Assembly (NCBI GenBank): GCA_902812405.1
Contig: CADDZI010000028.1
Span: 1-32,234 of the forward strand
Length of the DNA: 32,234 nucleotides
Reading direction: 5' to 3'
Source: a bacterium
GTDB taxonomy: Bacteria > Vulcanimicrobiota > Vulcanimicrobiia > Eremiobacterales > Eremiobacteraceae
Position 1 is the first letter of the stretch. Each line of letters begins with the position of its first letter. Made by a program: the position numbers and the translations under genes. The notes below the pieces were generated by a model. It ran no database searches and had not been told where the DNA came from. It saw only the letters and a list, made by a program, of their open reading frames with translations. Shown piece after piece: positions 2,092-32,234 of this stretch.

Positions 2092-2101
2092 TTAGCTCGA
2101 G
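1994..2101. repeat. 37-bp direct repeat, two copies 71 bp apart
   Basis: Copies at 1994-2030 and 2065-2101 are identical except for one base. The upstream-coordinate copy is intergenic; the other contains the terminal His-Ser-Ser-stop region of the OstA-like gene. The likely origin is tandem duplication of the gene's 3' end. Confidence 0.85.
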
Positions 2102-3144
2102 TGCGGCGCGGGCGACGGTGACCCGGGCGACGGTGACTCGGGCGACGGTGACGCCGATGGCCCGCCGCGCCGGAAGGGGAACGTGACCTTCACGCCGCCC
2201 AACGCTTTGAAATCCTGCGTCTGGGTATTGTAGAGGATCTCGGCGGCGTCGAAGGTACGGTCCGGCGGCTGCTCGCCGTGGACGCCCCCGGTCAGCGTCG
2301 CCACGTGGGTTGTGTCGTTGAGCCGCAGAACGGGGGCCACGAGCGTGCGATCGCCTTGCGCCAGGCGCACGTGGCCGGTTGCCGTGTACTGTGTTTTGAC
2401 GACGTCCAGCCGGTCGCACCACAGCGTGAGGGGCGCGCGGCGGCTCTCGCCCTGCCCTCCACCACTGTAACGGTGGACGACGACGTTGCCCGTCAGAAGC
2501 AGCGTACCGGCTTTGTTGTTGCCGACCGCCCGGTCGGCGCGAAAATCCATATCCGCGGTTGCCCCGGACAACGGCACCGGCACGTTCAGCGCTCCCGTGG
2601 CGAGATTGTACTGGAGCAGGGAGGTCGCGAGGGAGCGGTCGTTCTGTTGCAGGTGAACGTTGCCGCGAAGCAGGCCTTCGTGCGTCGTATCGTTGAGCTG
2701 CAAGTAGTCGCTTTGCAACCGGCGGGCGCCCTGCACGGCGACGACGTTTCCGGTGGCCGTATACACGGCGGGTTTGCTCCCAATGCGCAACTGATTGCAG
2801 GTCAGCGTCAAGGGCGGGCCCGGTGAACCGGCAGACGAGGCACGCCGGTGCAGGACAACGTGCCCAACGAGCGTCAGCTCCTGCGTCTGGTAGTTGCCGA
2901 ACGCTCTGTCCGCGCGAAAGTCGCCATCCTCGGAGACGCCTTTCACGGCACCGGGCACCACAAAGTCGCCGTTGGCGCGAAAGGTCCCCTCGGCAAAGCT
3001 GACCGTGAATTTTCCGATGGTTGCATCGGCGCGCGCGGGCATGCTGCAGGCGAGCACCAGCATGAGGATGAGGGACGCCGCGAGACCCGGCCCAATGCTG
3101 CAGGCTGGGAAGACCGGGTTGGGTGAGGCCGGGCCTGCACTCAT
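2092..3144 (-). CDS. OstA/LptA-like exported protein
   Basis: A 350-aa protein from the ATG at 3144. An N-terminal hydrophobic stretch (about 20-33) ends in PARA|DA, a plausible signal peptidase I site; VLAC at 30-33 is a weaker lipoprotein alternative. The mature part consists of repeated beta-type units such as DFRADRAxGN, LTGNVVVHR and LRLNDTTHxxxLxGxVH, the pattern of the OstA/LptA/LptC beta-jellyroll fold that carries lipopolysaccharide across the periplasm. The C-terminus is a Ser/Pro/Glu tail made by three 15-bp repeats (about 2107-2152). The frame stays open upstream; an ATG at 3306 would overlap the tsaC stop but adds an Arg-rich stretch before the signal peptide. The fold call is good. 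The exact role (LptA versus another OstA-domain protein) is inference. Confidence 0.72.
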   Translation of the reverse strand: MSAGPASPNPVFPACSIGPGLAASLILMLVLACSMPARADATIGKFTVSFAEGTFRANGDFVVPGAVKGVSEDGDFRADRAFGNYQTQELTLVGHVVLHRRASSAGSPGPPLTLTCNQLRIGSKPAVYTATGNVVAVQGARRLQSDYLQLNDTTHEGLLRGNVHLQQNDRSLATSLLQYNLATGALNVPVPLSGATADMDFRADRAVGNNKAGTLLLTGNVVVHRYSGGGQGESRRAPLTLWCDRLDVVKTQYTATGHVRLAQGDRTLVAPVLRLNDTTHVATLTGGVHGEQPPDRTFDAAEILYNTQTQDFKALGGVKVTFPFRRGGPSASPSPESPSPGSPSPAPHSS

Positions 3145-4228: not shown

Positions 4229-4252
4229 GTAGCGGTCGCGCTTGCGCGACCG
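4229..4252 (+). repeat. REP element, plus orientation, downstream of RAYT gene
   Basis: GTAG followed by a perfect 9-bp stem CGGTCGCGC/GCGCGACCG with a TT loop. It lies 20 bp beyond the RAYT stop codon and opposes the REPs on the other side of that gene. Confidence 0.88.
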
Positions 4253-4271
4253 CCAGAAGCTCGCCCCTTAT

Positions 4272-4724
4272 TTATAGGTAAGGATCCGCCACCCCCATAA
4301 AAGGGTAGTCACCTGGATCTTTCACCAAACCCGCGCGTATCGGATTTCCGAGAAGGTACCGCACAACAAGTCCGGGTGGGACATGCGGCCGGACGATACG
4401 ATCGAAGTATCCGCGTTGCCACCGCAGACCAGGAACCATTCGCCGGATGCTTATTTTCATCATCGCGACTATCTGTGAAAGATGGCGTCCTCGGGTACGG
4501 ATGAACAGATGCACATGGTCGGGCATCACGCAGTACGCATAGAGCCAGAATGTCTGGCGAAGATGCTCTTCTCGAATTGCCGCCACTGCGTGCTGTGCGT
4601 TGACTGGATGCCGAAACCATGGCAGGCGGTTCTTGCAGCAGAACGTCACAAAGGCAGACGTCGGCCGGCGATAGTCGTGCCTCAGGTAACGGGGAGGTGT
4701 GCGGAAATCCACGCCGTCCTTCAA
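4272..4724 (-). CDS. rayT: REP-associated tyrosine transposase (RAYT, Y1/HUH family)
   Basis: Single-strand DNA transposase-like protein of the IS200/IS605 TnpA superfamily that in other genomes cuts and joins REP hairpins. From the TTG at 4724 the protein has 150 aa and GGAG sits five bases upstream; the frame is open to 4790, but that longer start falls inside a REP. The HUH motif MPDHVHLF (His70, His72), WQRGYFDRIVR (102-112) and YLLGNPIRAGLV (Tyr123 as likely nucleophile) are all RAYT hallmarks. All catalytic residues are present, so it may be active. It is bracketed by REPs at 4229-4252, 4780-4803 and 4835-4858, the arrangement expected of a RAYT with its cognate REPs. Confidence 0.88.
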   Translation of the reverse strand: MKDGVDFRTPPRYLRHDYRRPTSAFVTFCCKNRLPWFRHPVNAQHAVAAIREEHLRQTFWLYAYCVMPDHVHLFIRTRGRHLSQIVAMMKISIRRMVPGLRWQRGYFDRIVRPHVPPGLVVRYLLGNPIRAGLVKDPGDYPFMGVADPYL

Positions 4725-4779
4725 TAACGCTCCGACGAGAAACGTCAAGGGGGCGGGGGCAACGCTAGGGTGCTCCCGT

Positions 4780-4858
4780 CGGCCGCGCAAGCACGGCCGC
4801 TACAGGGCTACAGGCAAAGAAGAGACCCTTCCGTCGGCCGCGCAAGCGCGGCCGCTCC
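4780..4858 (-). repeat. Two REP elements upstream of the RAYT gene
   Basis: 4780-4803: CGGCCGCGC, AA, GCACGGCCG (one stem mismatch) then CTAC, i.e. GTAG on the minus strand. 4835-4858: perfect stem then CTCC, so the minus-strand tetranucleotide is GGAG instead of GTAG. Both tetranucleotides are known in characterised REP families. Confidence 0.87.
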
Positions 4859-7195: not shown

Positions 7196-7330
7196 CGGTC
7201 GCGCAAGCGCGACCGCTACGGATAGATGGCATCTTCTCGGGCGCGCAAAGGGGAGAGGTTCTCTCGGGCGCGCAAGCGCGACCGCTACGGATAGATGGCA
7301 TCTTCTCGGGCGCGCAAGCGCGACCGCTAC
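7196..7330 (-). repeat. Cluster of three REP elements with repeated spacers
   Basis: REPs at 7196-7219, 7265-7288 and 7307-7330, all ending CTAC (GTAG on the minus strand), plus a REP cut off after its first arm at 7237-7249. The spacer starting GGATAGATGGCATC occurs twice (7220-7248 and 7289-7317), so the cluster grew by duplication of REP plus spacer. It fills the gap between mreB and the glycosidase gene. Confidence 0.85.
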
Positions 7331-17391: not shown

Positions 17392-17474
17392 GTAGCGGTC
17401 AGCCTTGGCCGACCGTCGCGCTTGCGCGAAGCGAGCTCCTGCAGCGTTCTGTAGCGGTCGCGCTTGCGCGACCG
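17392..17474 (+). repeat. REP pair upstream of atpI
   Basis: REP at 17392-17415 with a diverged stem (CGGTCAGCC, TT, GGCCGACCG; one mismatch) and a perfect REP at 17451-17474, both with GTAG. Between them 17416-17431 is a REP-like palindrome without the tetranucleotide. Confidence 0.83.
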
Positions 17475-23942: not shown

Positions 23943-24124
23943 GTAGCGGTCGCCCTTGGGCGACTGACGGAACGTGGCCTCTTGAACCGTAGCGGTCGCC
24001 GTTGGGCGACCGACGGAACGTAGCCTCTTGCAACGTGGGTCCAACGCGTTACGCCGTCTTCGGTCGCGCAAGCGCGACCGCTACACCAAAAGGCGCACTC
24101 CCCGCTCGCGCAAGCGCGGACCGA
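23943..24124. repeat. REP cluster upstream of rpiB
   Basis: Plus-oriented REPs at 23943-23966 (stem CGGTCGCCC/GGGCGACTG) and 23989-24012 (CGGTCGCCG/GGGCGACCG) share the following GGAACGT(G/A)GCCTCTTG spacer (period 46). A minus-oriented perfect REP lies at 24061-24084 and a decayed one at 24104-24124. The first copy shows a base-pair flip relative to the common form. The gap 23861-24145 holds nothing else recognisable. Confidence 0.85.
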
Positions 24125-26611: not shown

Positions 26612-26654
26612 CGGTCGCGCACACCTTTGCGTGGAGGTCGCGCTCGCGCGACCG
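26609..26654 (+). repeat. Interrupted REP at the stop codon of the TIM-barrel gene
   Basis: TAG CGGTCGCGC supplies the stop codon and the first hairpin arm; about 23 bp are inserted before the second arm TCGCGCGACCG. The tetranucleotide is CTAG rather than GTAG. Confidence 0.65.
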
Positions 26655-26704: not shown

Positions 26705-26806
26705 CGGCCGCGCAAGCGCGGCCGCTACAGAACGTCCGCTCATCGGCCGCGTAAGCGCGGCCGCTACAGAACGTCCGCTCATCGGCCGCGCAAGCGCGGC
26801 CGCTAC
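26705..26806 (-). repeat. Triple REP array with 39-bp period
   Basis: Three REPs at 26705-26728, 26744-26767 and 26783-26806, each CGGCCGCG(C/T)... then CTAC, separated by identical 13-bp spacers (AGAACGTCCGCTC). The middle copy has T for C at the end of the first arm. It lies between the TIM-barrel gene and the 6S RNA terminator. Confidence 0.9.
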
Positions 26807-29516: not shown

Positions 29517-31147
29517 GGCTCGTCGGGCGGGCGCCTGCGGTGCTGCTGCTGGGATGCGTCGCGCTTGCGATTGCCGCCTGCACGCGTGTGGGTGCGCCGG
29601 GCGAGCGTGCAAGCGGCGGGCGCAACCCGTGGACCATCCCGGGCGTCGTCCGGGTCGCCCTCACCGAAGAGCCCAATACGCTCGTGCGCATGTTTTCCAA
29701 TCAGGCTTCGGCAGACGACGTCACCGCTCTGCTCTTCGAGCCGTTCTTCCGCTACGACAATCACGAGCGCCCGGTGCCGGCGCTCGCGACGACATTTCCC
29801 ACACTGGCCAACGGTCTCATCAGCAAGGACGGACTGCGCATCACCTTTCCGCTGCGCAAGGGTGTGCTGTGGTCGGACGGCGTGCCGGTCACCGCGGCCG
29901 ACGTCATCTTCACGTGGCATGCCATCGTCGACGGGCGCAATCCGGTCGTCTACACGCAGGGCTACGACCGGATCAAGACGATCGTCGCCGACAACCCCTA
30001 CCGCGTCACGTTCGTCATGAAGCAGCCCTTCAGCCCGGCCGTCTACCTTTTCTCCGAAGGAACCTTCACGCCGCTGCCCGCTCACCTGCTGGCACACGAC
30101 GCCACGCTGAACAATATCCCGTACGACGCACACCCGATCGGCGACGGGCCGTTTGTGCTCAAGCGCTGGGTCCACGGGGCGGATCTCATCTTCGTGGCCA
30201 ATCCCCACTACTGGCGTGGGCCGCCGCACGTGCGCGAGATTGATATGAAAGTCATTCCCGACCCCACGACCCAGGTGAACGAACTGCGCACCCACGAGAT
30301 CGACTTCATCGACGGCGTCTCGGCGAGCCTCGTCGGCGACCTGGCCGGCATCCCCCATATCTGGATCCAACGCCAGCTGCAAGCCAATTACCGCCATCTC
30401 GACTTCAACTTGCGCAATCCGATTCTGGCGGACATGGCGGTCCGGCAGGCCATCGCGCGCGCGATCAACGTGCAGGCGGTCATCGACGACGTCTATCACG
30501 GCCTGGGTGTGCGGGCGTCCACCGATATTCCGCCGTTCTCGTGGGCGGCAACCGGCTTGCCGCCGATTCCCTACGACCCCGCCGCGGCCGCGCGGCTGCT
30601 CGACGCAGATGGCTGGCGCGTGGGTCCGGACGGCATTCGGCGCAAGAACGGACACCGCTTGAGTCTTTCCATTTCCTCGACGACGGATAACCGGCCCAAC
30701 GCCGATGCCGAGGCGCTCGTGGCGCAGCAACTGAAGGCCGTCGGGATTGATCTGACGGTCAAGAATTATGCCGGGCCGGTTTTGTTTGCCGAAGGCGGAC
30801 CGCTCTACGGCGGGCGCTACGACATGTCGTGGATCGTCAACACGGAAGCCGTCGATCCCGACAATCTGGCGGTCTGGGGTTGCGCCTACTTTCCGCCGCA
30901 CGGTGCGAATACGGATTTTTACTGTAATCCGGCGGTCGACCGCTACCTGCAAGCGGCCGAGACGACCTACGATCAACGGCAACGACGCGCCGACTACACC
31001 GCCGCCTGGCGCATCATGCTCCACGACGTGCCGTCGGACATCTTGTATTGGGAGCAGAACGTGCTGGCCGGCAACAGCGATCTGCACAACGTTAAGGCGG
31101 CGCCCGTCATCACCGATTTCTGGAACGCGTGGGAGTGGAGCATCTGA
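29513..31147 (+). CDS. ABC-type oligopeptide/dipeptide-binding lipoprotein (SBP_bac_5 family)
   Basis: 544 aa starting at ATG 29513 (ATGA overlap; AGGAGG 13 bases upstream). A lipoprotein signal peptide ends IAAC (Cys23). The body is a DppA/OppA-type family 5 binding protein: VVRVALTEEPNTLV, LFEPFFRYD, LRKGVLWSDGVPVTAADVIFTW, GDGPFVLKRW, NPHYWRG, VRQAIARAINVQAVI, AARLLDADGW. It captures peptides or related solutes outside the membrane. No permease or ATPase gene follows in the window, so it relies on components elsewhere. Confidence 0.92.
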   Translation: MRLVGRAPAVLLLGCVALAIAACTRVGAPGERASGGRNPWTIPGVVRVALTEEPNTLVRMFSNQASADDVTALLFEPFFRYDNHERPVPALATTFPTLANGLISKDGLRITFPLRKGVLWSDGVPVTAADVIFTWHAIVDGRNPVVYTQGYDRIKTIVADNPYRVTFVMKQPFSPAVYLFSEGTFTPLPAHLLAHDATLNNIPYDAHPIGDGPFVLKRWVHGADLIFVANPHYWRGPPHVREIDMKVIPDPTTQVNELRTHEIDFIDGVSASLVGDLAGIPHIWIQRQLQANYRHLDFNLRNPILADMAVRQAIARAINVQAVIDDVYHGLGVRASTDIPPFSWAATGLPPIPYDPAAAARLLDADGWRVGPDGIRRKNGHRLSLSISSTTDNRPNADAEALVAQQLKAVGIDLTVKNYAGPVLFAEGGPLYGGRYDMSWIVNTEAVDPDNLAVWGCAYFPPHGANTDFYCNPAVDRYLQAAETTYDQRQRRADYTAAWRIMLHDVPSDILYWEQNVLAGNSDLHNVKAAPVITDFWNAWEWSI

Positions 31148-32223
31148 GCGCGTCGGCGGCGCTGGCCGTCTCGCTGACGGTCTTGCGCTTGAGCACGCCG
31201 GTGCGCACGGACTATCGGTCGCCCGTGCACGAGGTGCCGGGCGGCTTCACGACGGCGGTCGTTTCCTGGAACGTCGCGACGCCGGGCGGTTCGTGGATTG
31301 AAACCTTCCTGCGCGCGCGACGCGGCGGGCGATGGACAGGCTGGTACGCGATGGGTGAGTGGAGCGCAAGCGACGGCGCACACCGGCATTCTGTCTCCGG
31401 GCAGGCTGATGCTGACGGACGTGTGGCAACTGACACTCTCCTTTTAACGCACCCTGTGGACGCATGGCAGGTTGACGTGCGCCTGCATGCCGGACCGCAA
31501 GGAGAGCAGCCCGCACTCACGCTGGTCGCGGTCACGACCGGGACGCAGACCGGCGGGACGCAGACCGGCGCGCCGAGCGCCGTGCAGTCCGGGGCACAGG
31601 CGAGTGGAAACGCAGCCGCCGGCGCAAGGGCCGGTTTGGTTGAGGGACGCCATCCGGCATGGGGCGTTGACCTCGATGTTCCCGAGCGAACACAGCGGGT
31701 GGATGAGTCGCCGGATGCGCTTGCCGGCGGCGGCGACGCGTGGTGCAGCCCGACCAGCATTGCGATGGTGATGGACTACTGGGCGCAACGTCTGCATCAC
31801 CCGCAGTGGAGCATCGCCCTGCGCAAGGTTGTTGAGGGAACCTACGATCCGGTGTATCAGGGGTGCGGCAACTGGCCGTTCAACGTCGCCTATGCTTCGG
31901 AGCACGGGCTTGCGGGTTGGGTCGAGCGCTTGCCGGGCTTGGATGCGGCAGAAGAGTACATAACGCGCGGCATACCGCTCGTGGCGAGCATCAAGGTGGC
32001 GCCAGGTGAACTTGCGGGGTCGCCGTATCGTCAGACGGCGGGCCATCTGCTCGTTGTGCGGGGGTTTACCGTCGCAGGAGACGTGATCGTCAACGACCCA
32101 TACGGGCTGCCGGGTCACATCCGGATTGTGTATCGGCGCGACCAATTTGCTCGGGTCTGGCTGGGCGGCTCGGGCGGTATCGTGTACGTGATTGCGCCGC
32201 CCCGCGCGTTGGCGTTCATGTAG
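31129..32223 (+). CDS. C39-like papain-fold peptidase (Peptidase_C39_2)
   Basis: 364 aa from GTG 31129, overlapping the binding-protein gene by 19 nt. N-terminal beta-rich domain (about 30-135: VVSWNVATPGGSWIETFLRAR, WYAMGEWSASD, VDGQ-like repeats) as in actinobacterial secreted C39-family proteins; a Thr/Gln/Gly/Ala linker (137-170) containing a 15-bp duplication; then the peptidase domain with VDLDVPERTQ, catalytic Cys206 in GGGDAWCSPTSIAMVMDYW, His306 in TAGHLLVVRGF and Asp323 in VNDPYG. It is not a bacteriocin-exporter C39 (no ABC domain). A weak N-terminal hydrophobic stretch may be a signal. The stop codon TAG is part of a REP. Role in peptide or peptidoglycan processing is inferred. 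Confidence 0.85.
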   Translation: MGVEHLSASAALAVSLTVLRLSTPVRTDYRSPVHEVPGGFTTAVVSWNVATPGGSWIETFLRARRGGRWTGWYAMGEWSASDGAHRHSVSGQADADGRVATDTLLLTHPVDAWQVDVRLHAGPQGEQPALTLVAVTTGTQTGGTQTGAPSAVQSGAQASGNAAAGARAGLVEGRHPAWGVDLDVPERTQRVDESPDALAGGGDAWCSPTSIAMVMDYWAQRLHHPQWSIALRKVVEGTYDPVYQGCGNWPFNVAYASEHGLAGWVERLPGLDAAEEYITRGIPLVASIKVAPGELAGSPYRQTAGHLLVVRGFTVAGDVIVNDPYGLPGHIRIVYRRDQFARVWLGGSGGIVYVIAPPRALAFM

Positions 32224-32234
32224 CGGCTGCGCTT
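32220..32234 (+). repeat. REP element truncated by window end
   Basis: GTAG CGGCTGCGCTT: tetranucleotide and first hairpin arm of a REP in plus orientation. Its TAG is the stop codon of the C39 peptidase gene. Confidence 0.7.

Follow-up and report, generated by a model that had tools for sequence, protein, structure and literature searches.

A putative REPtron in Candidatus Eremiobacterota: a RAYT gene bracketed by REP hairpins and its intergenic REP family

The closest described relatives of the locus reported here are RAYTs (TnpAREP) and the REP hairpins that accompany them. In the E. coli REPtron (Bertels group 2, Quentin subclass 2.2), a single chromosomal RAYT with the HUH-Y1 fold and its catalytic residues is flanked by REPs, and hundreds of intergenic REPs carry a GTAG foot. 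PDB entry 4ER8 represents the E. coli RAYT in complex with a REP hairpin. Group 3 (subclass 2.5) enzymes from Stenotrophomonas, Pseudomonas and Marinomonas have perfectly palindromic REPs and a WQ....D...R foot-contact pattern. Two surveys (PMC3733652, PMC6006769) describe subclass 2.4/2.7 TnpAREP from Cyanobacteria, Chloroflexi, PVC and others, in which a flanked RAYT is combined with a GTAG foot, a perfect stem of 6-13 bp and a TT/TY loop. These earlier described non-proteobacterial REPtrons show that the REP arrangement originally presented as a gammaproteobacterial one is not confined to that group. Finally, TnpA of IS200/IS605 elements (IS608, ISDra2) has the same fold, the HUH motif with its tyrosine, and recognizes hairpins with the help of a 5' guide tetranucleotide.

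We analysed a window of 32,234 nucleotides, which is the entire contig C28 of a 2.32-Mb genome (110 contigs, 97% complete). The host is a soil bacterium, and its family is part of the little-studied phylum Candidatus Eremiobacterota. All of the features named above for the E. coli REPtron are found in the window genome as well, but here the stem is perfect and lacks a bulge, the loop is TT and REP clusters are mostly head-to-tail. Perfect-palindrome REPs and the foot-contact pattern are shared with group 3, whereas the HuH and Y motifs of the window RAYT read DHVH and YLLGNP instead of DH[LF]H and YI[VI]ANP, and its family forms a separate clade. With the subclass 2.4/2.7 systems the locus has foot, stem, loop, flanked RAYT and a non-proteobacterial host in common; the phylum Eremiobacterota, however, is not named in the excerpted parts of both surveys (PMC3733652, PMC6006769). 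DHVH and WQ also agree with the Quentin subclass 2.7 pattern ([ND]HVH, WQ, YI[LR][NQ]NP, long canonical REP), but YLLGNP does not, and the tree described below contains no subclass 2.7 reference set. Our literature search found no paper on REPs in Eremiobacterota.

The gene is contained in an ORF on the reverse strand (4272-4790). Its probable start is a TTG at position 4724, a few bases after a GGAG, which yields a RAYT of 150 amino acids (4272..4724, (-)). With this start, the HUH histidines are H70 and H72 and the catalytic tyrosine is Y123, exactly as numbered in the original prediction of a complete RAYT. In an alignment of 25 RAYTs from many phyla, M67, P68, H70, H72, Y123, N127, R130 and Y140 were invariant. 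The protein reached 80.8 bits (E=8.6e-23, cut-off 80) against the NCBIfam model NF047646 (REP_Tyr_transpos) and 34.8 bits against Pfam Y1_Tnp. AlphaFold modelled it with a pLDDT of 90.8, and 4er8 was the top PDB match of this model (E=2e-8, ~21% identity in the structural alignment). A profile search with the window RAYT also returned 4er8 (E=6e-19). Furthermore, W102, Q103, D108, R109 and R112 align with W94, Q95, E/D100, H/R101 and R104 of the E. coli enzyme, which PMC6006769 gives as residues of the region reading GTAG. By family models, predicted structure and motif alignment to 4er8, the window protein is a RAYT/TnpAREP. It is the only Y1/RAYT gene detected by a whole-genome search, and no other Y1 transposase was found. 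The gene has a GC content of 56%, compared with 66% for the window, and was missed by a codon-usage gene caller trained on the window genome.

One REP (GTAGCGGTCGCGCTTGCGCGACCG, 4229..4252, (+)) lies downstream of the RAYT, and two lie upstream, both with one mismatch (4780..4803, (-), and 4835..4858, (-), the latter with a GGAG foot). These REPs face each other as inverted copies with their GTAG ends outward, in line with the bracketing by GTAG/GGAG hairpins in opposing orientations that had been claimed. By all the sequence tests applied here, the flanking hairpins are the cognate REPs of the window RAYT. Further copies were located at the contig start (4..27, (-)), in a head-to-tail cluster (7196..7219, 7265..7288 and 7307..7330, all (-), the second within a duplicated 69-bp unit), at 17451..17474 (+) and at 24061..24084 (-). 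Two copies with a variant stem stand head-to-tail at 23943..23966 and 23989..24012 (both (+)), and three form a head-to-tail array with a 39-bp period (26705..26728, 26744..26767 and 26783..26806, all (-)). At 17392..17432 (+), a compound REP is formed by GTAGCGGTCAGCCTTGGCCGACCG and, immediately after it, a TCGCGCTTGCGCGA hairpin. A degenerate REP with a GTGG foot and three mismatches occupies 26631..26654 (+), and a final REP (32220..32234, (+)) runs off the end of the contig; the TAG stop of ORF 31129-32223 comes from the GTAG of this REP. Of the 17 coordinates originally listed, 15 thus correspond to full copies, while 26609 marks a degenerate half copy just upstream of the real one at 26631, and 32220 is the truncated copy. 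Both ends of C28 lie in REPs, as expected where repeats break assemblies.

Compound double-hairpin REPs (GTAGCGGTCGGCCTTGGCCGACCG, then directly TCGCGCTTGCGCGA) occur elsewhere too, with ~12 of this stem type in 432 kb. Apart from the REPs, the window contains a 37-bp direct duplication and a 15-bp tandem repeat (1994-2101 and 2098-2152) around the 3' end of ORF 2092-3144.

REPs were counted genome-wide by matching the 24-nt core with up to 3 mismatches, and the reversed pattern served as control. GTAGCGGYCGCGCTTGCGCGRCCG was found in 352 copies in the 2.3-Mb genome, versus 0 for the control. The density of one copy per 2 kb that had been proposed holds for the window, but it exceeds the genome mean (one per 6.6 kb) about threefold. 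Each unit begins with a sharp 5' boundary at GTAG, continues with a hairpin of nine perfect stem pairs and a TT loop, and ends with ~16 conserved nucleotides 3' of the hairpin (A-C/G-A/G-GAACGT..CGCCTTG). The two stem arms covary: 30 double-changed cells were observed versus 8.3 in shuffles (0 of 500 shuffles were as high), and sliding the partner gave no more than 4. In DNA with a GC content of 66%, GC-rich palindromes might arise by chance. This explanation was rejected, given the empty reversed-pattern control, the stem covariation and the sharp boundary at GTAG.

Gene context was assessed in a 432-kb sample comprising five of the larger contigs and the window, with genes taken from a purpose-built caller. 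Within this sample, 75 of the 77 REPs (97%) were intergenic, although intergenic DNA accounts for 12.7% of the bases. Convergent gaps contained 4.3 REPs per kb, same-direction gaps 1.1 and divergent gaps 0.64. A marked bias of this kind, towards convergent and away from divergent gaps, would also fit hairpins that the host keeps as terminators or 3'-end mRNA stabilisers, with an incidental or past link to the RAYT. However, conservation extends to the unpaired GTAG foot and to the 3' tail, and terminators need neither.

The comparison with relatives covered the order, represented by 14 genomes in the resource, all of one family. RAYTs were detected in 10 of these 14 genomes (15 hits, one to three per carrying relative). 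In a phylum sample of 148 genomes, 12 were above the RAYT cut-off, 10 of them in the family of the window. A tree of 14 family RAYTs and 35 from other groups placed the family in one clade (98/97). At the majority of the other 14 RAYT loci in the family, the gene is flanked by hairpins whose GTAG or GGAG feet point outward, and the hairpin varies by genus. In our scan, a few family loci had REPs on one side only, and no flanking REP was found at L009, which is near a contig end. The automated scan also returned bracketed RAYTs in several more lineages of other phyla, where its misses are no proof of absence. Some RAYTs are broken: the second copy in G005 is frameshifted (L015, G005:C4), and the sole RAYT of G013 (L005/L022, G013:C191) has an in-frame TAG. 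A sequence titled Proteobacteria bacterium (L021, JAJPHJ010000041.1) carries a RAYT of the Eremiobacterota clade, and the title is probably wrong.

The inverted bracketing of the gene resembles the ends of an insertion sequence. RAYT and flanking REPs could accordingly form a transposing IS200/IS605-like element, with the solitary REPs as leftover ends. None of the window RAYT neighbours LptA, Sua5, glycosidase, MreB, MurA and AtpD was found beside a RAYT in the relatives examined, which would suit a mobile element, as would the two RAYT loci in genus g8; an uncertain PilB-like match beside the RAYT of one relative is an exception to the absent neighbour synteny. But the window genome has one RAYT versus 352 REPs, and unlike IS200/IS605 TnpA, the gene is single copy and scored below the IS200 cut-off (21.8 bits at a cut-off of 55, versus 80.8 bits with the RAYT model). 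In addition, the two RAYTs found in each of G011 and G012 share 61-62% identity and are diverged paralogues of long standing, not recent duplicates. We thus consider an IS200/IS605-like element very unlikely.

If the RAYT and its hairpins belong together as a REPtron, REP sequences should follow RAYTs between genomes. Five REP types were counted genome-wide (up to 3 mismatches) in the 14 genomes of the family, giving 239-520 copies at home and mostly 0 elsewhere. For the window REP these were 352 copies at home and 0-4 in the other 13 genomes. For the G001 REP, G001 itself had 239 copies and G013 had 12 related ones, with 0 elsewhere, and the G011/G012 REPs had 344 and 520 copies at home and 0 elsewhere. 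The G004 REP was found 311 times in G004 and 44 and 24 times in its congeners G003 and G005, and the G005 REP 481 times in G005 and 93 and 66 times in congeners. Reversed-pattern controls for the G001, G011/G012, G004 and G005 REPs gave 0. Stray matches of the relatives' REP types numbered 1-3 in G011 and were otherwise 0 away from the genomes named. Among those listed, the congener copies of the G004 and G005 REPs were mostly imperfect, as would be expected for decay after the matching RAYT was lost.

A second count was blind to sequence and scored GTAG-footed perfect hairpins per 100 kb. Genomes with a RAYT had ~6-25, versus 0 in G002, 0 in G006 and 2.5 in G008, which are without RAYT. G008 has a sparse REP family of its own (GKAGCGGTCGAATTYATTCGACCG and relatives; L155-L158, L195-L201), and no RAYT was detected there; this fits RAYT loss, and could also reflect an assembly gap. 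Over the 14 genomes, REP copy number therefore tracks RAYT presence, the check proposed with the original prediction, and it does so in REP sequence too, with G008 as a partial exception. Abundant REPs in relatives without a RAYT, which had been named as evidence against the link, were not seen: G002 and G006 have none, and those of G008 are sparse. Sparse REPs without a RAYT, as in G008, are what hairpins kept as terminators or stabilisers could produce. Yet REP-type hairpins are nearly absent without a RAYT, and between genera they are swapped wholesale, each still matching the copies that bracket the local RAYT. Retention by the host for such functions is thus an unlikely explanation.

Since the family RAYTs form one clade while their hairpins differ, the hairpin has been replaced repeatedly and the RAYT kept. 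At one orthologous site (L128 8776 in G012 versus L186 in G011), the REP stems of the two species differ in both arms at once, as would result from replacement at the site. No clean pair of REP insertion and empty site was found between G011 and G012 in one 20-kb stretch, where REP type and number differ instead. The nearest relatives of the window genome belong to other genera, and no REP-free orthologous site was found.

The arrangement of neighbouring REPs was predominantly head-to-tail. Among pairs no more than 130 bp apart in the 432-kb sample of the window genome, 30 were head-to-tail, 9 feet-outward and 4 feet-inward, and in four relatives 49 head-to-tail pairs were found versus 7 inverted ones. 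REPINs, whose mobile unit is an inverted doublet, call for mainly inverted pairs; here, 13 inverted pairs stand against 30 head-to-tail. Clusters in G004 comprise up to 12 units. Regular, CRISPR-like head-to-tail arrays with a period of ~34-50 bp were observed at G004:C59 69787-70083 and G004:C55 127308-127532. Duplicated flanks are present in about 10 of the 30 head-to-tail pairs, which are probably ordinary tandem duplications, and absent from the others. Insertion in the same orientation adjoining an existing REP would fit a single-strand, strand-specific reaction. PMC3733652 describes head-to-tail REP dimers as lacking or infrequent in most genomes, unlike the window genome, where head-to-tail pairs are the majority. 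This organisation has been little emphasised in REPIN-centred models.

The sister species G011 and G012 each carry two paralogues, RAYT a and RAYT b (L003, L008, L013, L014), from a duplication that predates their split (100/96 in the tree; 61-62% identity between a and b). In both species, the REPs flanking RAYT a have a GGAG foot and those flanking RAYT b a GTAG foot. The GGAG foot is absent from the foot variants quoted from PMC3733652 (GYAG, GYRG, GTRG, GTMG, GTGG). In the sampled DNA, the foot varies together with the preceding base, which is G or T, and with an inner stem pair that is either A-T or C-G: 23 REPs were of type GGAG/A-T, 21 of type GTAG/C-G and 2 of type GGAG/C-G. Genome-wide (up to 1 mismatch), GGGAG...AT was matched 137 and 251 times in G011/G012, and TGTAG...CG 121 and 185 times. 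RAYTs a and b are separated by 26 fixed differences, including position 112, the counterpart of the GTAG-contact residue R104 in E. coli. Both a copies have His there, whereas all other aligned family RAYTs, the two b copies included, have Arg. E. coli TnpAREP accepts no change of GTAG (PMC8266576).

The duplication may have given rise to a paralogue that reads GGGAG in place of TGTAG, along with a single altered stem pair, and this shift may rest largely on the exchange of Arg to His at position 112. RAYT foot specificity could then be re-programmed by natural divergence, and the family would amplify by inserting new REPs on the same strand beside those already present, which would yield head-to-tail arrays rather than REPINs. 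As the Arg/His switch is one evolutionary event, we offer this as a hypothesis only, at somewhat less than even odds. R104H was set aside as a predictor of GGAG feet at large. Pseudomonas lundensis (L053) carries His at this position, but the surroundings of its RAYT yielded no REP hairpin, so L053 provides no test of such a rule.

We interpret the locus as a REPtron, that is, a single-copy, stationary RAYT/TnpAREP with a family of short hairpins that it recognizes, and assign this reading a probability of roughly 0.87. Binding, cleavage, transposition and strand specificity are attributed to the window RAYT by analogy, and the expected steps are drawn from the E. coli, Stenotrophomonas and Marinomonas enzymes (PMC8266576). 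The RAYT would bind REP DNA in single-stranded form, on the strand that carries GTAG, for example in the lagging-strand template, and would cut beside the hairpin via Tyr123, with a metal held by His70 and His72. The cut would be expected at a nearby CT-type site, and the ends would then be rejoined. In this way, REP units made of the 24-nt core and the ~16-nt 3' tail may be copied or moved into intergenic DNA, where a new REP would often land by an existing one in the same orientation. Specific reading of the stem would provide each RAYT lineage with its own REP family, and the family would decay once the RAYT is lost.

How a RAYT recognizes its REP and whether RAYTs truly spread REPs are open questions in the field, and three enzyme/REP pairs have been compared in vitro (PMC8266576, 2021 NAR). 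The present findings add Eremiobacterota to the phyla with REPtrons, at the confidence given above. One bacterial family offers ~14 naturally matched RAYT/REP pairs within a single RAYT clade, with full replacement of the hairpin between genera. Relatives without a RAYT serve as controls, and two paralogues with different feet coexist in one genome. Thus, this family would allow direct tests of cross-recognition and of residue swaps between RAYTs.
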